From Planctomycetota bacterium (GTDB lineage: Bacteria; Planctomycetota; B15-G4), in contig JAJDER010000095.1 in assembly GCA_029259725.1 (NCBI GenBank), positions 1 through 59,153 of the forward strand: a stretch of 59,153 nucleotides of DNA. Direction: 5' to 3'. Of the stretch, positions 25,441-59,153 are shown in pieces. A model generated the notes under the pieces. It worked only from the letters and a program-made list of their open reading frames with translations. It did not search any database and was not told where the DNA came from. Made by a program: the position numbers and the translations under genes. Every line of letters starts with the position of its first letter. The first letter of the stretch is position 1.

Positions 25441-26208
25441 ATGCTCCGCAACACCGCCGTTCCGTCCGCGCTGCTCCTCGCCGCGCTCCTGACGCTGGTC
25501 CCCTCGAGCCCGCCGAGCCCGCCGAGCCCACCGGGCGCCGAGGGCATCGAGATCCTCAGTGACGACACGCAGTACATCGTGCGCGTCGACCCCGACGAGG
25601 GTGGCCGGCTCACCGAGTTCCTACGCCTGTCGCAGACACTGCTGGGCCAGCCGATCAAGTACAGCCCGGCCGAGGTCGCCGACGTCCGGCTGCGCTTCGC
25701 CGGCGACCTCACCTGTGCGCGCGAGGACTTCCCCGGCCTCTTCGAGAGCGTCATGCGGTCGTACCAGTTCGTCGTGGCGACGCGAAGCCACGACGGGGGT
25801 GCGTTCCTCGAGGTCCTGCGCCTCACGAATGGCGGGCCACCCGGCAGCGGCCGCCTCTCGTGGGCGCACACGGTGCTGCTGCAGCCCGAGGAACTCGAGA
25901 CGCCGCCCGCGATCCTGATGCCGTTCTACACCGTCGTCTTCCCGGTGAAGAACACCGACGCGCGCGGCATGATGGCCAGCCTGCAGAGCATGATCGACAC
26001 GACCATGGAGAGCATCCGCAACGTGGACTCCCACGCCCTGATCGTGACGGCGAGCCTCGACCACCTGCGGTTCATGGGCAAGCTCATCGCCGCCATGGAC
26101 GAGACGGCGGAGGACCGCGTCGGGCAGATCCAGGAGTTGCAGCAGAAGGTCGCGGCCCTCGAGGCGAGACTGAACCGCCTGGAGACGCCGTCTCCCGCCG
26201 GGCGCTAG
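25441..26208 (+). CDS. Exported secretin-N-domain-like protein, without secretin barrel (paralogue 2)
   Basis: 255 residues; GAGAGAGGGG precedes the ATG. Signal peptide followed by a Ser/Pro repeat (SPPSPPSPP). The first module (LTEFLRLSQTLLGQPIKYSP, DVRLRFAGDL) aligns with paralogue 1. The second is a better secretin_N match: TVVFPVKNTDARGMMASLQS, then NVDSHALIVTASLDHLRFMG. It ends in a short coiled coil (QIQELQQKVAALEARLNRLE), which suggests oligomerisation. The stop codon TAG lies inside the left terminal repeat of the 184-bp foldback element. No secretin barrel is present. Confidence 0.78.
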   Translation: MLRNTAVPSALLLAALLTLVPSSPPSPPSPPGAEGIEILSDDTQYIVRVDPDEGGRLTEFLRLSQTLLGQPIKYSPAEVADVRLRFAGDLTCAREDFPGLFESVMRSYQFVVATRSHDGGAFLEVLRLTNGGPPGSGRLSWAHTVLLQPEELETPPAILMPFYTVVFPVKNTDARGMMASLQSMIDTTMESIRNVDSHALIVTASLDHLRFMGKLIAAMDETAEDRVGQIQELQQKVAALEARLNRLETPSPAGR

Positions 26209-26387
26209 CCTGGACTTCTCACCAGCTTCTGCTGCGGAATCACCAGGGCCTCCATGGCTGCGTCGAGCGGCGCGGTCGATGCGCGACGGGGTGTGCACCC
26301 CGCCTCCGCGTCGACCACGCCGCTGCTCCTTGCCACGAAGGCCCTGGCGCCCCCTCGCGACGAAGCGGGTGAGAAGTCCAGGCTAGC
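26204..26387. repeat. 184-bp foldback repeat with 20-bp terminal inverted repeats, copy A
   Basis: GCTAGCCTGGACTTCTCACC at 26204-26223 is matched by its exact reverse complement at 26368-26387. Inside, further complementary blocks lie on nearly the same axis: CCAGGGCCT (26243-26251) with AGGCCCTGG (26339-26347), GGTCGA (26274-26279) with TCGACC (26311-26316), and CGGGGTG (26287-26293) with CACCCCG (26296-26302). The whole element can therefore fold into one long imperfect hairpin. Each end carries CTAG, which could be a duplicated target. It lies between convergent genes and contains no credible gene. Copy B begins at 59020. It may be a MITE, a palindromic intergenic repeat or a bidirectional 3'-end structure. 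Confidence 0.88.
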
Positions 26388-26402: not shown

Positions 26403-29081
26403 TCATCCGCGTCGAGGACGCCGCTCCGGCTTCGCGGCCAGCGGGTTCTCGGGCCAGGCGTGCTTCGGGTACCGGCGACGCAGCTCCTTGCGCACCTCGG
26501 GGTAGGTGTTGGCCCAGAAGCTGGCCAGGTCCTCGGTGACCTGCTGCGGGCGCATGTTCGGGCCGAGCAGGTGCAGCAGGACCGGGATACGCCCGCCGCC
26601 GACGCGCGGCGTCTGCGCCAGCCCGAAGATCTCCTGGATGCGCACGGGCAGCACCGGAGGCCGGCCGGGCGCGTACTGCAGGCGCACGTGGCTGCCGCTG
26701 GGAACCTCGATGCGCTCCGGTGCCTCGCGGTCGAGCGCGGCGCGCTGCTCCCACGTGAGCGTCGACGCGAGGCGCTCGACGAGCGGCGCGCGGCGCAGCT
26801 CCGCGAACGAACGCAGGCCTCGACACAGCACCGGGAGTCGCGCGCTCAGCTCCTCCGCGTCGAACAGCGGGAGCTCCAGCTCGGGGCGCCATCCGGCGAG
26901 GCAGCGCACGCGGGCGAGCCAGTTCTGCACGTCAGGGTTGGCGAGATCGAGCGCGCGGTCGAGCTGCTCGCCGGCCGCCGCCGCCAGGGTCGCCGCCACG
27001 GCGTTCTCCTCCGGGAGCTTCGCCGGCGCCGATTGCAGCACGAGGTCCTCGAAGCGCACCTCGCGGACGGCGCTCACGCGCTCTCGGGCGGAGTCGAAGA
27101 CGGTGCGCACCTCGGTGACGATCCGGTGCTCGGGGAGCCAGCTCCGCTCGACGGCCGAGGCCTGGCGCACGAGCGCGTCGTGCCGGGTGTCGGGGCGACC
27201 ACCGGCCGAGACCCCCGTGACCTCCACGGCGACGAAGAGCTCGGCGTCGTGGACCGCGCTCCCCGGATCGAGCCGCACACCCCGGCCGCCGGCCAGGACG
27301 GCGCGGGCGGGGTCGTCGTCGCGACGACGGGCCAGCCGATCCGGAAAGGCCGTGAGCAACGCGCGTCGGAGGGCGACGTCCTCGTCCTGGTGGGATCCGG
27401 GCCCGCGCGCCGCAGGCTCGCTCAGGCGTGACGCCAGCCGCGCGAGCTGATCGCGGCTGCGCAGCACGAAGCGTGCACCGGCGGCGTGGATCTCCCCCGC
27501 GGAGGTCGCCCGGCGTCGACCCTGCTCGAACTCCTGCAGCGCGCGCACGCGATCGACGACATCGGAGTCGGAGCGATGCTCACTGGCCCGACGGGCGGGT
27601 GGCCGCCGCGTGAAGGGATCCCGCTCGGCCAGCAGCGCCGCGGCCAGGGCGACCAGCTCCGGGATGCCGAGGCGCGTGCCCTCGACCAGCAGGCGCGCGA
27701 GCCGCGGGTGGACCGGCAGCTTCGCCAGGGAACCACCCGTACCCGTGATGACACCGTCCTCGAGCGCCCCGAGCCGGTCGAGCAGCTCCAACGCCTGATC
27801 CACGGCGCGTGCCGGCGGCGGTTCGAGCCACGGCAGCGCCGACACGTCGCGCTCACCCCACGCGAGCAGCTGCAGCACCGGGCCGGCGAGGTCCACGCGG
27901 CGCAGCTCCGGCTCCTCGACCTCGGCGCGCGCGCGATGCTCGTGCTCGCTCCAGAGGCGCAGGCACACGCCGGGGCCGAGCCGTCCGGCGCGGCCGGCGC
28001 GCTGATCCGCCGACGCGCGGGAGATGTCCGCGAGCACGAGGCGGTCGAGGCCCACGGACGGATCGAACCGCATGACCCGCGCGAGCCCGGTGTCGACGAC
28101 GGCCGAGACGCCCTCCACGGTGACCGAGCTCTCGGCCACGTTGGTGGCCAGGATCACGCGGCGTCGAGGACCGGCGCGCAGCGCGTCGTCCTGCTTCTCC
28201 GGCGGCAGGTCGCCGTAGAGTTCGACCACGCGGACGCCGGGGGTCGAAGCGTCACCGGCCGCGGGACCATCGGCCGCGGGACCATCGGCCGCGGGAGCAC
28301 CCGCCGCCGGGCCACCCGCCGCTCGGAACGCCGCCGCCAACTCCTCGCCGGTGCGGCGGATCTCCCCGACGCCCGGCAGGAACACGAGCACGTCGCCCGC
28401 CGTCCGCCGCAGCATGGCCACGGCTCCCGCGGCGGCGGCGCGATGCACGGGCTCGTCCCGGTCGCGTCGCGCCCAGCGCATCTCGACCGGATGCAATCGA
28501 CCGGCGCAGCTCACGAGCGGTGCGCCCAGCGCGGAGGACAGTTCCTCGCCGGCCAACGTCGCCGACATGACCACGAGCTTGAGGTCGGCGCGCGCGTCGG
28601 CGCGGACACGTCGCACCATGGCCAACGAGAGGTCGGTGTCGAGGTGGCGCTCGTGGAACTCGTCGAAGACGACGGCGCCGAAGCGCTCCAGGAACGGGTC
28701 CTCCTGGAGCAGGCGCACGAGGACGCCCTCGGTCACGACGAGCAACCGCGTGTCGCGGCCGGCCTTGCGGTCGAAGCGCACCTGGTAGCCGACCTCGTCG
28801 CCGAGCGCGACGCCGCGCTCCTCGGCGATGCGACGGGCGGCGGCCCGAGCAGCCAGCCGACGGGGCTCGAGCACGATCACGGCGCGGTCGCCGGCCAGGC
28901 CGGCATCCAGCAGGGCCGGCGGCACGCGCGTGGTCTTCCCGGCGCCGGTCTCGGCCTGCAGCACCGCCGCCCCGTGATCCCGCACGGCGCTCAGCAGCTC
29001 GGGGAGGACCGCATCGATCGGGAGGGCCACGCGCGCCGGGCGGGCGCGGTCACCGGAACCGGGATTCACGACGGGCGTCAC
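26403..29081 (-). CDS. hrpB: ATP-dependent RNA helicase HrpB
   Basis: 892 residues from a GTG at 29081; E. coli HrpB has about 809. DEAH-box superfamily 2 helicase: Walker A AETGAGKTT (43-51), box II DEFHERHLD (from 141), VVMSATLAG (motif III), LATNVAESSVTVEGV and QRAGRAGRLGPGVCLRLW (motifs V and VI), followed by HA2 and the HrpB_C domain ending in WPENPLAAKPERR. An Ala/Pro/Gly-rich insertion (AAGAPAADGPAADGPAAG, near residue 265) is encoded by 15-base repeats at about 28258-28310. A GTG at 29030 would align better with other HrpB N-termini (ALPIDAVLPELL), and a 13-bp hairpin covers the 29081 start, so the shorter form is possible. Confidence 0.92.
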   Translation of the reverse strand: MTPVVNPGSGDRARPARVALPIDAVLPELLSAVRDHGAAVLQAETGAGKTTRVPPALLDAGLAGDRAVIVLEPRRLAARAAARRIAEERGVALGDEVGYQVRFDRKAGRDTRLLVVTEGVLVRLLQEDPFLERFGAVVFDEFHERHLDTDLSLAMVRRVRADARADLKLVVMSATLAGEELSSALGAPLVSCAGRLHPVEMRWARRDRDEPVHRAAAAGAVAMLRRTAGDVLVFLPGVGEIRRTGEELAAAFRAAGGPAAGAPAADGPAADGPAAGDASTPGVRVVELYGDLPPEKQDDALRAGPRRRVILATNVAESSVTVEGVSAVVDTGLARVMRFDPSVGLDRLVLADISRASADQRAGRAGRLGPGVCLRLWSEHEHRARAEVEEPELRRVDLAGPVLQLLAWGERDVSALPWLEPPPARAVDQALELLDRLGALEDGVITGTGGSLAKLPVHPRLARLLVEGTRLGIPELVALAAALLAERDPFTRRPPARRASEHRSDSDVVDRVRALQEFEQGRRRATSAGEIHAAGARFVLRSRDQLARLASRLSEPAARGPGSHQDEDVALRRALLTAFPDRLARRRDDDPARAVLAGGRGVRLDPGSAVHDAELFVAVEVTGVSAGGRPDTRHDALVRQASAVERSWLPEHRIVTEVRTVFDSARERVSAVREVRFEDLVLQSAPAKLPEENAVAATLAAAAGEQLDRALDLANPDVQNWLARVRCLAGWRPELELPLFDAEELSARLPVLCRGLRSFAELRRAPLVERLASTLTWEQRAALDREAPERIEVPSGSHVRLQYAPGRPPVLPVRIQEIFGLAQTPRVGGGRIPVLLHLLGPNMRPQQVTEDLASFWANTYPEVRKELRRRYPKHAWPENPLAAKPERRPRRG

Positions 29082-53995: not shown

Positions 53996-56900
53996 TCAGA
54001 GTCCGGCGACGTACGCCACCAGGTCGCGCATCTCCTGCCGGGTCAGCGTGGCCGCGAGGCCCTCGGGCATGGCCGAGAGTCCGGGCCGCACGAGTTCGAT
54101 GTCGGCGCGGTCGACCACGTGCACCTTGCCGTCGGCGTCCTGCAGGGTCAGCGCCGCGTCGGTCTCGTCGACGAGTCGTCCGGTGAGCAGGTCCCCGCCG
54201 TGCAGGAACACGTTGGTCCCGGCATAGCCCGGTGCGGTGCGCCGGTTGGGCGCGACGAGGGACTCCAGGATCTGCAGCCGCGCAAGGCGACGCCCGACGC
54301 CAGCGAGGTTGGGCCCGACGCGCGGCTCCGCGTCGAGTTCGACGGCGTGGCACCGCACGCACGACAGGGACACGCGCTGGAAGACGTCGTAGCCGACGCC
54401 GGCGTCGCCCCCCACCAGCGCGTCGAGCCAGGGACCGAGCTCGCCGTCCAGGTCGCGGCGAGCCAGGTGCTCGTCGAGTCGTTGCCGCACCCCGGCGTCC
54501 TCGCGCTGCTCGGCCGCCAGGACCAGGTCGAGGGACAGCTCGGCGGGCACGAGATCCGCCAGCAACAGATCGAGCTGCCCGGCCAGGATGGCGTCGGCCT
54601 CGGGGCTGTCGGCGGCGCCGAGGATACGATAGGCCACGCGTTGCTCAGCCCACTCGCCGTTCTCCAGGACCGCGGGGACTCGCGGCAGGGCCTCGCCCGG
54701 TGACAGGCGTTCGAGCACTTGCAGCCCCGCGGCGCGCAGGCCACCGTCCACATCGGAAAGGGCGCGCCCGACGATCGAGGCGAGGTCCGCGGGTGCAAGG
54801 TCCTCGAGGCCGGCGAGGGCCGCGGTGCGCAGCGAGGCCGGCGCATCCTCGGCCTCGACCCAGTGCCTCAGTTCCTCGGCCAGGCCGTGGGCACCCGACG
54901 AACCGGCGAGTCGCAGCCACACGGCCACGATGCGGTCGCGCTCCCGACGCGAGCCGGCCGACGCGTCCGCGGCGGCTTCGGCGGCGCGCCCATCCTCGGC
55001 GTCTTCGCTGCGCCAGCGGGCCAGATCGATGGCATCGGCCGCGCGCCCTTCGACCAGCGCGGCCATCCACGGCGACGTGCGCGGGCCGATGGGACGCCAC
55101 GCGCCGTGCACGACGTCGACGCCGGAGGGCTCGTCCCAGTCGGCCAGGAGTTGCAGGGCGAAGAGGCGCAAGCCGGACGGGACGTCCTCGCGGGACGCGT
55201 AACCGAGCAGGTCGCGCGCACGAGTCTCGCCCCCCACCCGATGCGCCGCGGCCAGTGCGCGGCGGGCGAACGCGTCGCTGCGAAGCTCGGCGCCGCTCAC
55301 GCGATCGGCCAGGGCCGGCAGGGCACCGAGCACCAGCGTGTCGTAGATGGCCCAGGCCGCCTCGTTCGCGACGCGCGGATCGGGATCGTCGAGCAGTCGA
55401 GCCAGGGCGGGATCCGCGAGGCGACGCCAGACCAGCGCGACGGCCAGGCGCACCTCGGCGGAAGCGTCCCGGGCGAGGGTCGCGAGTTCGGACGGAAGGG
55501 CGCAGGCCGCAAGGCCCATGACCGCCATGTGCCGCAGGTCGAGGTCGCTGTCGCCGACGCGGCGCACGACGTCGGCCAGCAGCGGGACCGACGCCGGGAT
55601 GCCGATGCGCGCCGCCGCCCGCGCGGCGAAGAACCGCACCCGTGCGTCGGCGTGGCGCAGGCCGATCAGCACCACCGCATCCGCGCCCCGGTGCCGCGCG
55701 TCGCCCAGTCCACGCAGCGCCTGGCTGGCCACCTCGACGTCACCGTCCAGCGCCAGCTCCAGCAACCAGCTCAGCTGCCTGGGGTCGGTCCGACCGGCCT
55801 GCCCCAACCCCCACGTCGCGTGCACGCGCGCGATCTGGTCCGGCGCGCCACGCGCAGTGACCACCAATGCCGCGAGGCCCTCGGAGCCGCGCCGCACGAG
55901 TTCGAACTGTGCTTCGGTGCGCACGCGGCGATCCAGATGCGACAACAGCGCGGCGAGCGTGACCACCTGTTGCCGGGCGATCCCGCCGCCGAGCAACCGG
56001 CGCACGTCGGCCACGACCGGATCGCGCTGCGCGTCGGGATCGGCGAGGCGGTAGAGACGCCCCTTGCCGGTCATGCCCCAGCCCTCGACCCAGTCGCTGA
56101 AGTAGAAGGCTCCATCGGGACCGAAGTCCACGTCGGTGACCAGCGTGTTCCAGATGAACCGCTCGACCTCGCCCAGCTCGAAGCTCGCGCCGGCGCGCTC
56201 CAGCGGGAAGGTGTGCACGCCGCTGGAGCTGCGGCCGCCGCGGAAGTCGGCCAGGAAGAAGTGGTCGTCGTATTTCGCGGGCAAGCCCGTGCCCGGGTAG
56301 TGCGTGAAGCCGCTGGGTCCGTGCGCCAGGTTGTCGATGGGCGGCACGATGTACGCGGGCTGTCCGGGGAAGTGCGGCTTCCACAGCGGCGCGCGCCCCC
56401 ACGGTCCGCGATCGGACGGCCACTGGTAGGGCGAGCGCCAACCGCTCTCGCCGCCCCAGACGACGTGCACCAGGCGCGCCTGGTCGCCGCCGTCACTGTT
56501 GTTGTCGCCGGTGAACAGGTCGCCGAAGTCGTTGAAGGCCAGCTCCTGCGGGTTGCGCAGGCCCGAGTGCACGACTTCCAGGTGGCTGCCGTCGAGCTCG
56601 CTGCGCAGCACCGCGCCGGTCTCGGGATACTCGAAGCGCTGGCCTTCGCGGCTGGTGACCACGAAGCCGCGGTCGCCCATGGAGTAGTAGAGATACCCGT
56701 CGGGGCCGATGCGCAGCCCGTGCAGGTCGTGGCCGAGCAGCGTCACGCGCACGCCGAAGCCGTGGGCGAAGCTGACCTGCTCATCGGCGTGGCCGTCTCC
56801 GTCGCGGTCGCGCAGGCGCCAGAGGTCGGGGATGTTGGTGAACCAGACGTCGCCGCGATAGCTCAACACGCCGGAGCCGAGGCCGTCCTCGGGGGCGTTG

Positions 56901-57418
56901 AATCCGTCGGCGAAGACGGTCGCGGTGTCGCCCGCACCGTCGCCGTCGGTGTCCCGGACGAGGCGCACGCGATCGTGTTCGGTGCTGTACGCGGTCAGCG
57001 CATCGCCCTCGAACTTGCGCATCATGGCCAGGCGATCGGCCACGCTGAAGGTGGCCAGCTCGTCCTCCAGCCAGTCCATGTGGCTGCGGATGTCGGTCAC
57101 GCCCGCGTGCAGGCGAAAGGTCTCGGCCACGTAGACGTCGCCCTGAGCATCGACGTGGAAGGCGACGATGTTGGCCAGCAGGGGCTCGGCCGCCCAGAGC
57201 GACAGGTCGAAACCCTCGGGGATCTCCATCGCCGACATGGCGCGCGCGCCGTCCTCCGATGCGGCCTCGACGTGCGGTGCGTAGCCGCTCGGTGCCGGCA
57301 GGGCATGCTGCGCCCACGCTGCCGCCGGCAGCGCGACCCACGCGATCAGCGCCAGGACGCCGCTGCCGCCCACGCCCGCGCGACGGGTGGGAGCGGGACG
57401 AACGACGCGGTCGAGCAT
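53996..57418 (-). CDS. PVC-type heme-binding CxxCH protein with membrane-bound dehydrogenase propeller
   Basis: 1140 residues from ATG 57418; the frame remains open to the window's right end, but opposite an unrelated gene, so the rest is excluded. A signal sequence (GVLALIAWVALPAAAWAQ) is followed by a sorbosone/glucose-dehydrogenase-like propeller (about 60-490: PEGFDLSLWAAEPLLANIVA, DGYLYYSMGDRGFV, SGLRNPQELAFNDFGDLFTG), HEAT-like repeats (about 490-900), and a C-terminal cytochrome c domain with CVRCH at residues 1020-1024 and the later GYAGTNVFLHGGDLLTGRL. This architecture is expanded in Planctomycetes and Verrucomicrobia; it is thought to oxidise sugars or alcohols in the periplasm. 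DinB gene follows after 74 bases. Confidence 0.93.
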   Translation of the reverse strand: MLDRVVRPAPTRRAGVGGSGVLALIAWVALPAAAWAQHALPAPSGYAPHVEAASEDGARAMSAMEIPEGFDLSLWAAEPLLANIVAFHVDAQGDVYVAETFRLHAGVTDIRSHMDWLEDELATFSVADRLAMMRKFEGDALTAYSTEHDRVRLVRDTDGDGAGDTATVFADGFNAPEDGLGSGVLSYRGDVWFTNIPDLWRLRDRDGDGHADEQVSFAHGFGVRVTLLGHDLHGLRIGPDGYLYYSMGDRGFVVTSREGQRFEYPETGAVLRSELDGSHLEVVHSGLRNPQELAFNDFGDLFTGDNNSDGGDQARLVHVVWGGESGWRSPYQWPSDRGPWGRAPLWKPHFPGQPAYIVPPIDNLAHGPSGFTHYPGTGLPAKYDDHFFLADFRGGRSSSGVHTFPLERAGASFELGEVERFIWNTLVTDVDFGPDGAFYFSDWVEGWGMTGKGRLYRLADPDAQRDPVVADVRRLLGGGIARQQVVTLAALLSHLDRRVRTEAQFELVRRGSEGLAALVVTARGAPDQIARVHATWGLGQAGRTDPRQLSWLLELALDGDVEVASQALRGLGDARHRGADAVVLIGLRHADARVRFFAARAAARIGIPASVPLLADVVRRVGDSDLDLRHMAVMGLAACALPSELATLARDASAEVRLAVALVWRRLADPALARLLDDPDPRVANEAAWAIYDTLVLGALPALADRVSGAELRSDAFARRALAAAHRVGGETRARDLLGYASREDVPSGLRLFALQLLADWDEPSGVDVVHGAWRPIGPRTSPWMAALVEGRAADAIDLARWRSEDAEDGRAAEAAADASAGSRRERDRIVAVWLRLAGSSGAHGLAEELRHWVEAEDAPASLRTAALAGLEDLAPADLASIVGRALSDVDGGLRAAGLQVLERLSPGEALPRVPAVLENGEWAEQRVAYRILGAADSPEADAILAGQLDLLLADLVPAELSLDLVLAAEQREDAGVRQRLDEHLARRDLDGELGPWLDALVGGDAGVGYDVFQRVSLSCVRCHAVELDAEPRVGPNLAGVGRRLARLQILESLVAPNRRTAPGYAGTNVFLHGGDLLTGRLVDETDAALTLQDADGKVHVVDRADIELVRPGLSAMPEGLAATLTRQEMRDLVAYVAGL

Positions 57419-57649
57419 GGGCTGGTGTCCAGGTCGGAAGAAGGACGCGACGCGCCAGCGTAGCGGCACCACAGCGTGGGTGAAACGGCCGCGTTGCCCC
57501 GTCGGCGGACTCGACGTCGGGCCCACTCCCGGATCCCGTGATACCGTGGTTCCGATCCTCGACAGGAGCGCCCGGCCAGCCCCGCGGAGGACGCGCTTCC
57601 CCCGGCGGCGGCGGGCGACCCCATCGAGAACGCCTCGGGGGAATCGCGC
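57419..57649. other. Divergent intergenic region; no gene seen
   Basis: 231 bases between the divergent starts of the PVC heme-protein gene and the secreted unknown at 57650. It must hold both promoters, but I could not pick a convincing -35/-10 pair on either strand. Confidence 0.35.
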
Positions 57650-59008
57650 ATGCATGCACACCTCGCTCGGGCCTGGGTCCTCAGCCCCGGTCTCGTCCTC
57701 GTCCTGTGCCTGGCTCCGCTCGCCGCTGCGTCGCCCGTCGACGAGGGCGAGCCACTCGAGGCACCGGCTTCCGAGGAGAAGGCGGCGACCAAGAAGATCC
57801 GAGCCGCGTTGAAGGAGTACCGCAAGCGCGTCCGCGACGTGGAGAAGGAGTACTACGCGATCATGCTGGACGCGACCGGCATCTTCGACGTGGTCGGCGC
57901 GGACCACATCGTGGCCGGAGCGACCGTCTCCATCCCGGAGTTGATCGACGCTTGGGACACCGTCGAGGCCGCGATCGCCGCGTGCAGCGACGAGTTGTAC
58001 CTCGACGTCGACGAGGGCCAGATCCTGAGCGGCTTCGAGGGTTCCGGCGGAGGCGTGGTGCGCCAAGCCTACGCATCGATGGAGGACACCCTGTGCCGGA
58101 CACAGGTGCGCATCGAACGGCGACTCGGCAAGCTGGGCAAGAAGGCCGACAAGGCCTGCTGGCCGGTGGTCCCTCTGGTGAGGATCACGGGCCTGCAGGG
58201 CGGCCGATCCCACGGGAGCCCGTTCACGGCGGATGCTCCGGCACCCGTGGCGGCGACGATCGTCGCCGCGTTCGACCGGAGTGCCACCGGATGGTTCCGC
58301 AATCTGCAGCCGGGCCAGGTCCCCGTGATCCGCGTCGACGATGACGAGAACCCGCCCTTCGTGGACGAACTCGAGCTGGACGAGAGCGGGTCGTTCACGA
58401 CGGAGAACTACCTTCTCACCAACGGCTCGCCCCGGACCTTCACCCTCGGCGTGCGCGACGCCGAGGGCCATGAGACCTGGCTCGACGAGGCGCGCATCGC
58501 GGCCCGGACGTGGGTCGTTCCCGGAGGCCCGACCTCCGTCGCCGAGTGCCCGGCGCTGTCCGAGGGCGAGGCCTCGGGGTCGGGCACGGTGACGCTGGAC
58601 GCGACGGAGTTCGTCTTCGAGCTGATCGCGGGCGACGCCATCACGGAGAAGGGCGTCGTGACCGGCATCGGCACGCCTCCGATCGCCGTGCAGGGCTCCG
58701 ACCCGGCGGCCACGATCGCCTTCGCCCTGTACAACATCGACGGCCAGGAACTCAGCCCGGGGACCCTCACGGTGCCGCTCGCCGGATCGGCCGGAGCCGA
58801 CGTCATCTGGGTCGACGAGACCGGGACCTACACGGGAGGCCAGGGCTCGGGCAGCGTCGTCGTCCTGGCGGTGGCGCACGATGCGCCGGCCCAGGTCTCG
58901 GCGATCGAGTTCACCTTCGACGTGGTCCTGGGCGACGGCGTCGGTGGCGAGCGGATCTTGACCGGGGCGCTGGAGGGCTGCCTCGCACACTTCGAGCCGG
59001 GCTCGTAG
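57650..59008 (+). CDS. Secreted protein of unknown function
   Basis: 452 residues. Signal peptide (LVLVLCLAPLAAASP). An N-terminal helical part (about 45-190) has a charged coiled-coil start (ATKKIRAALKEYRKRVRDVE) and a second helical block (TQVRIERRLGKLGKKADKAC). The rest is beta-rich: an Ig- or sheath-like segment (about 190-300) and a C-terminal domain with repeated strands (GTVTLDATEFVFELIAGDA, VSAIEFTFDVVLGDGVGGER), where the motif F-F(E/D)(L/V)x-GD-Ix-K/E recurs. No family was recognised. Element copy B begins 12 bases after its stop. Confidence 0.72.
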   Translation: MHAHLARAWVLSPGLVLVLCLAPLAAASPVDEGEPLEAPASEEKAATKKIRAALKEYRKRVRDVEKEYYAIMLDATGIFDVVGADHIVAGATVSIPELIDAWDTVEAAIAACSDELYLDVDEGQILSGFEGSGGGVVRQAYASMEDTLCRTQVRIERRLGKLGKKADKACWPVVPLVRITGLQGGRSHGSPFTADAPAPVAATIVAAFDRSATGWFRNLQPGQVPVIRVDDDENPPFVDELELDESGSFTTENYLLTNGSPRTFTLGVRDAEGHETWLDEARIAARTWVVPGGPTSVAECPALSEGEASGSGTVTLDATEFVFELIAGDAITEKGVVTGIGTPPIAVQGSDPAATIAFALYNIDGQELSPGTLTVPLAGSAGADVIWVDETGTYTGGQGSGSVVVLAVAHDAPAQVSAIEFTFDVVLGDGVGGERILTGALEGCLAHFEPGS

Positions 59009-59019
59009 CGGACGCCGAC

Positions 59020-59153
59020 CTAGCCTGGACTTCCCACCAGCTTCTGCTGCGGAATCACCAGGACCTCCATGGCTGCGTCGAGCGGCGCGGTCGATGCTCG
59101 ACGGGGTGTGCACCCCGCCTCCGCGTCGACCACGCCGCTGCTCCTTGCCACGA
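59020..59153. repeat. Foldback repeat, copy B (cut by right edge)
   Basis: Bases 59020-59153 match 26205-26338 of copy A without gaps at 131 of 134 positions; the differences are at 59034 (C for T), 59063 (A for G) and one in the GATGCKCGACG segment. The left terminal repeat begins CTAGCC as in copy A. The right arm is outside the window, so symmetry cannot be tested here. It starts 12 bases after the stop of the gene at 57650-59008. Confidence 0.88.

Follow-up and report, generated by a model that had tools for sequence, protein, structure and literature searches.

Prokaryotic MITEs such as QMITE2, the TIMEs, MITEPye1 and the Correia elements are short and non-coding, and their terminal inverted repeats are like those of insertion sequences. 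According to excerpts of three papers, these elements are mostly intergenic, form a stable hairpin in transcripts and have parent families other than IS1380 (PMC10969869, PMC4133298, PMC11578231). Small transposons of bacteria are commonly regarded as degenerate remnants. Another point of comparison is offered by the eukaryotic piggyBac transposons, which are related to IS1380 and have a 4-bp palindromic target with a central TA. The IS1380 transposases form the outgroup of the piggyBac transposases in an excerpt of one analysis (PMC10813416), and the IS1380-family member IS1247 is described, again in an excerpt, as 1672 bp long with 16/13-bp repeats and a 5-bp duplication (PMC3281130). No description of an IS1380-type MITE was found in the available portions of the IS1380 and MITE literature (PMC4133298, PMC3542288, PMC3281130, PMC10813416, PMC11578231, PMC10969869, PMC4853749, PMC3733652), and none of the papers containing the letters of the element ends described below concerns a bacterial repeat, as judged by title and listing.

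The DNA analysed here (the window) is the whole of the 59,153-nucleotide contig C190, whose last base is 59153, from a Planctomycetota MAG assembly of 195 contigs that is 84.43 per cent complete. It carries one complete copy (copy A) and one truncated copy (copy B) of a foldback element (Table 1), and there are three matches to the end motif in the window where 0.00 are expected. We read both copies, with a probability of roughly 0.8, as a non-coding MITE whose ends are recognised in trans by an IS1380-family transposase and which inserts at CTAG. At 182 bp the element falls within the size range of MITEs (about 70-300 bp); it has no transposase gene, and its 25-bp end repeats are perfect in most sister copies. 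In the right repeat of copy A the G at 26367 is unpaired, and this position is a T in 19 of 20 sisters. Unlike the prokaryotic MITEs named above, the present element is GC-rich, has IS1380-type ends and possesses an interior structure that is recognisable in several phyla. Two adjacent long ORFs, at 54719-57463 and 57650-59008, both lack a Pfam family.

Table 1. Features of the two element copies and their neighbours, in window coordinates
Feature	Position	Strand	Remark
Copy A, complete foldback element (MITE), 182 bp	26205..26386	+	fold z -8.8 and sister loci in the genome
Copy B, left 134 bases, truncated at the end of contig C190	59020..59153	+	131 of 134 bases identical to copy A
Left terminal inverted repeat of copy A, starts CTAG	26205..26229	+	
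Right terminal inverted repeat of copy A, ends with CTAG	26362..26386	-	
Central hairpin (helix 5) of copy A	26287..26302	.	stem letters vary by lineage, pairing retained
Terminal CTAG of copy A, target tetramer	26205..26208	+	TAG is the in-frame stop of ORF 25441-26208
Third difference between copies A and B	59098..59098	+	T versus G at 26283; partner 59122 still C
HrpB-like helicase ORF, convergent with copy A	26403..29081	-	HrpB_C, DEAD and Helicase_C matches
452-aa ORF, stops 11 bases before copy B	57650..59008	+	no Pfam family

This genome contains at least 21 copies of the element, a number obtained by counting the complete copies and by pairing every orphan left half with an orphan right half. 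The element matches at 63 places when both strands are counted, for a foldback also matches itself on the opposite strand. The end motif occurs 20 times in forward and 20 times in reverse orientation, compared with 0 for the reversed control, and these 40 matches indicate the many dispersed copies that characterise a MITE. A contig end lies inside the element at 21 of the 30 fetched loci, in many cases after about 140 bases. Near-identical repeats break short-read assembly, which accounts for the end of contig C190 within copy B, and contig ends that fall inside repeats are expected artefacts.

Several copies are rearranged or incomplete. Contigs C111 (L021) and C33 (L101) share the rare end CTCG in place of CTAG, located on opposite arms, and may be two halves of one copy. 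At L081:1501-1681 the outer arms have changed places with respect to the core, an arrangement that looks like the product of a core inversion through arm-to-arm recombination. In a second genome of the same family (G005), loci L116-L133 include many one-ended fragments in which one CTAG end is intact and the remainder is lost at variable points, and L117, L121 and L127 have internal deletions with both ends present.

The ends of the element, CTAG-CCYGGACTTCTCAC... and CTAGCCTGGACTTCTCACC, are similar to the ends of IS1380-family insertion sequences, which read CTAGCCCG...TCTCAC. There is one IS1380 transposase gene in the same genome, confirmed by NCBIfam and Pfam, and the ends of its 1689-bp unit differ from those of the element at 4 and 5 of 21 positions. 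Both ends are similar (summed mismatches of 11 or fewer) at eight of 31 IS1380 loci, compared with none of the 31 for each of two control patterns. The element thus has ends of IS1380 type, which are similar but not identical to those of the resident IS1380. An IS1380-family transposase supplied in trans would recognise these ends and mobilise the element, which itself lacks a transposase and differs further from the family in having 4-base CTAG-like flanks rather than the 5 bp of IS1247. A comparison of the element interior with the interior of the insertion sequence gave no convincing similarity, only isolated weak scores with p of 0.01 or more, uncorrected. For this reason we call the element 'IS1380-ended' and not 'a deletion derivative', and a core derived from the insertion sequence was rejected.

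No IS1380 gene was detected in G005, although that genome has far more copies of the element than the present one; its IS1380 was possibly lost or is unassembled. The IS701-type DDE_5 family (PF13546) was also considered and rejected, as it is found in two of 10 genomes, in neither case with these ends nearby. Pairs of end motifs more than 700 bp apart, sought as autonomous insertion sequences in a genome of Ca. Fermentibacteria, rested on weaker motif matches. The likeness to piggyBac is best taken as an analogy; the target there is TTAA and not CTAG. Four IS1380 loci (L276, L275, L279 and L291) have ends with TTAA or CTAA besides CTAG, which recalls the piggyBac target.

All nine complete copies in the present genome start with CTAG, and eight of them have CTAG at both sides. 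Insertion at CTAG would most likely create a 4-bp target duplication in this genome. In Ca. Fermentibacteria CSMAG_2897 (G060, which holds L145) there are 339 end-motif matches (172 forward and 167 reverse), and elements are nested within elements, as at L202, L203, L205 and L216; many copies also contain small palindromic inserts (CCCGCGTC...GACGCGGG). Wherever both outer parts of a nested copy are readable, comparison with uninterrupted sisters reveals a 4-base flank on each side (4 of 4). One of these is a clean GTAG duplication matching its uninterrupted sister, and the tetramers are unequal in the other three; across the genome, six of 36 end pairs have equal tetramers.

REP/REPIN repeats, which are mobilised by a Y1 (RAYT) transposase, likewise have an inverted pair of short palindromic ends and occur in many copies. 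If the element were of this type, the CTAG foot would be the terminal palindromic tetramer, each end of the element does contain an imperfect hairpin, and GTAG repeats have been reported in Planctomycetes in an excerpt of one study (PMC3733652). However, Y1_Tnp (PF01797) is absent from all six genomes of the family that were searched, in which the controls were detected. Together with ends that match IS1380 and nested copies with 4-base flanks, this leaves a RAYT-moved repeat with almost no weight in our assessment.

The CTAG at which the element sits often includes the stop codon of a gene. Among the 27 complete copies from the present genome and G005 there are 20 gene 3' ends that overlap the element, as called by a simple GC3-based heuristic, and 19 of these stop at the TAG of CTAG. 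The remaining one, at L080, was scored at -5, an effect of a slice that begins two bases too soon; when corrected, it also stops at this TAG. In 37 units from other lineages, four of five gene overlaps stop at the CTAG of the element. There are 13 CTAG tetramers in the window where 153 are expected from base composition, and five of the 13 are located at predicted stops, so the preference for stop sites may be explained by availability alone. The CTAG tetramer, scarce in this GC-rich genome, frequently contains a TAG stop codon, so the element can come to lie on a stop without disrupting the gene.

The same arrangement could reflect an element owned by the host, such as a bidirectional terminator or an mRNA-stabilising hairpin, that has spread for its function at gene 3' ends. 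The folds are very stable, and 37 of 53 flanking predicted genes face the element with their 3' end. Yet this bias is explained by insertion at CTAG, copy A lacks a terminator-like site with a run of T, and nested insertions and one-ended fragments are the mark of a transposon. We therefore consider a host-owned element highly improbable.

The earlier note on this DNA proposed that copy B offers a sharp test of the fold, wherein two of its differences from copy A should be matched by a G near 59187 and a T near 59157. Its location of copy B is borne out by the identity given in Table 1, and both differences were read correctly (59034 C versus 26219 T, and 59063 A versus 26248 G), as were the copy A partners 26372 (A) and 26342 (C). 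Since contig C190 goes no further than 59153, the predicted bases are absent from the assembly. Sister copies provide an indirect answer through an alignment of 30 loci, in which sites are numbered within the element. Site 44 is an A in 22 of 25 copies and its partner, site 138, is a C in 27 of 27. Among the 22 copies in which both are readable, 20 have A-C and two have G-C. Copy B therefore carries the usual base at site 44, and copy A, with its G, is among the exceptions. Site 15 is a T in 18 of 19 copies and a C in copy B only (1 of 19), while the partner site 168 is an A in all 20 aligned right arms and in the right half on contig C33 (21 in total). Judging from these sisters, the predicted G and T are unlikely; if the right arm of copy B resembles them, 59187 is probably A and 59157 is probably C.

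The two-base test is also less sharp than was claimed, for an A-C mismatch on one strand is a G-U pair on the other. Both changes would leave G-U pairs on the complementary strand, and so a right arm that keeps the copy A bases, proposed as the refuting outcome, would not decide the matter. A third difference, at 59098, was overlooked. Its counterpart in copy A, 26283, has 26307 (C) as its partner, and the position of copy B equivalent to this partner lies within the window and is also C. There is thus no compensation at the sole differing pair for which the window shows both bases of copy B. At this site (site 79) 25 of 26 copies have T, and the unusual base is thus that of copy A and not that of copy B. 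A search for the right half of copy B by synteny yielded nothing that could be joined: across 20 genomes including the present one, the neighbouring 452-aa product matched once elsewhere, weakly (E 6.9e-5). The missing right half would be one of the orphan right halves in the genome.

The predicted fold of copy A has an energy of -69.3 kcal/mol compared with a shuffle mean of -39.2, and none of 200 shuffles is as good. To follow changes in this fold, 27 complete copies were aligned, nine from the present genome and 18 from G005; the set excludes L081, with its exchanged arms, and L007, from which 7 bases are missing. Private changes were scored against the consensus of each subfamily on the pairs given by RNAalifold. 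The change is one-sided in 51 of the pairs altered within subfamilies and two-sided in two (2 of 53 compensated), so the decay of sister copies is mostly uncompensated. Across the 27 copies, which represent two genera, double changes are present in 11 of 56 consensus pairs. Only a few subfamilies are separated by these double changes, and there are accordingly few independent events behind them.

Evidence over greater distances comes from a structure model built from 19 element interiors, with the ends excluded, and searched against 47 loci. It matches OFTM8 (E 1.9e-29), LacPavin Planctomycetota (E 4.1e-13), Planctomycetota OFTM221 (E 1.4e-5), Acidobacteria BJ1 (E 1.6e-9 and 5.2e-9), Myxococcota IP29b (E 4.1e-9), Nitrospira bin75 (E 2.7e-4) and, weakly, Ca. 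Fermentibacteria (E 0.018). A sequence-only model from the same alignment found OFTM8, OFTM221 and LacPavin (0.0064); the BJ1, IP29b, Nitrospira and Fermentibacteria interiors were not found by it. In eight lineage rows, 330 of 367 cells are paired and 36 of 47 interior pairs have double changes, compared with shuffled means of 241.5 paired cells and 20.1 double-changed pairs; none of 1000 shuffles reaches either observed value. When the pairings are slid, 106-152 cells are paired. These values are to be read with the caveat that the rows were aligned to the model itself and that three of the eight are from genomes used in building it. Three of 11 aligned rows were left out as opposite-strand matches of copies already included, and with all 11 rows 87.2 per cent of cells are paired and 37 pairs have double changes.

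Models of long hairpins match foldbacks generically. For example, the Rfam plant miRNA model MIR1437 scores 54.5 bits on copy A against a cut-off of 168, and searches of six loci with Rfam gave no match at the element at the gathering score, only sub-threshold generic hairpin models. However, the foldbacks L145, L152, L159 and L170, which have the same ends, and nearly all Fermentibacteria copies remain without a structure-model match even at E 1. Those outside lineages that do match are hit on a single strand. Both observations argue against a purely generic hairpin effect.

The fold is thus kept at the lineage level and not copy by copy. The earlier suggestion that the hairpin is maintained holds between lineages and fails within subfamilies, which indicates that hairpin covariation needs to be tested between lineages and not between two sister copies. 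Probably the fold undergoes selection or renewal only in those copies that still transpose, while dead copies decay. Perhaps instead the matched changes arise when one arm is copied onto the other, by template switching or conversion within the foldback, and do not reflect selection on the fold. The arms are near-perfect inverted repeats, the outer arms at L081 are exchanged relative to the core, and the end change shared by C111 and C33 is on opposite arms. The excess of one-sided over two-sided recent changes speaks against arm copying, and the unlike arm motifs TTCTGCTGCGG and TTCGTCGCGAGG, which homogenisation would erase, persist in distant lineages. We regard it as a rather unlikely source of the matched changes, but one that merits serious consideration. 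The occurrence of the same ends with a covarying fold in several phyla provides a natural data set for examining whether a MITE core is itself functional.

Some observations hint that the strand complementary to copy A is the one that folds better. Sites 44/138 in the 27 complete copies are A-C in seven, G-C in five, C-A in 14 and C-G in one, and all four combinations pair on the complementary strand if G-U is allowed; C15-A168 of copy B would do so as well. Folding energy favours the complementary strand beyond shuffles in 11 of 12 sequences (z 0.88 to 6.70, several below 2), and the exception, Gamma_L170, goes the opposite way (z -1.45). In a strand-neutral count of A-C versus G-T, BJ1, G005_T and LacPavin point in the opposite direction and Gamma is equal, and recent one-sided changes show no strand bias (18 versus 20). 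The strand asymmetry is thus a lead and not a result. It is conceivable, though we would not expect it, that a conserved, structured RNA, transcribed off the complement of copy A, is common to the elements of at least Planctomycetota, Acidobacteria, Myxococcota and Nitrospira, and that it is selected in transposing copies and hence functional. Such an RNA would serve the life cycle of the element or its effect on host mRNA 3' ends.

A phage, virus or plasmid vector was considered and rejected, since 0 viral contigs contain the end motif, and the matches in plasmids (16 records) and phages (28 records) are all short and weak, with not one of them spanning 80 per cent of the query. In a collection of 84,980 species, the end motif is present in 68 stretches, and similar elements are found in records labelled Planctomycetota, Acidobacteria, Myxococcota, Nitrospira and Ca. 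Fermentibacteria. A complete copy at L135:3735-3916, in a record named Phycisphaerales OFTM8, has about 99 per cent identity with copy B along 134 bases. Its presence in another named group indicates either a recent transfer or a mis-binned contig.
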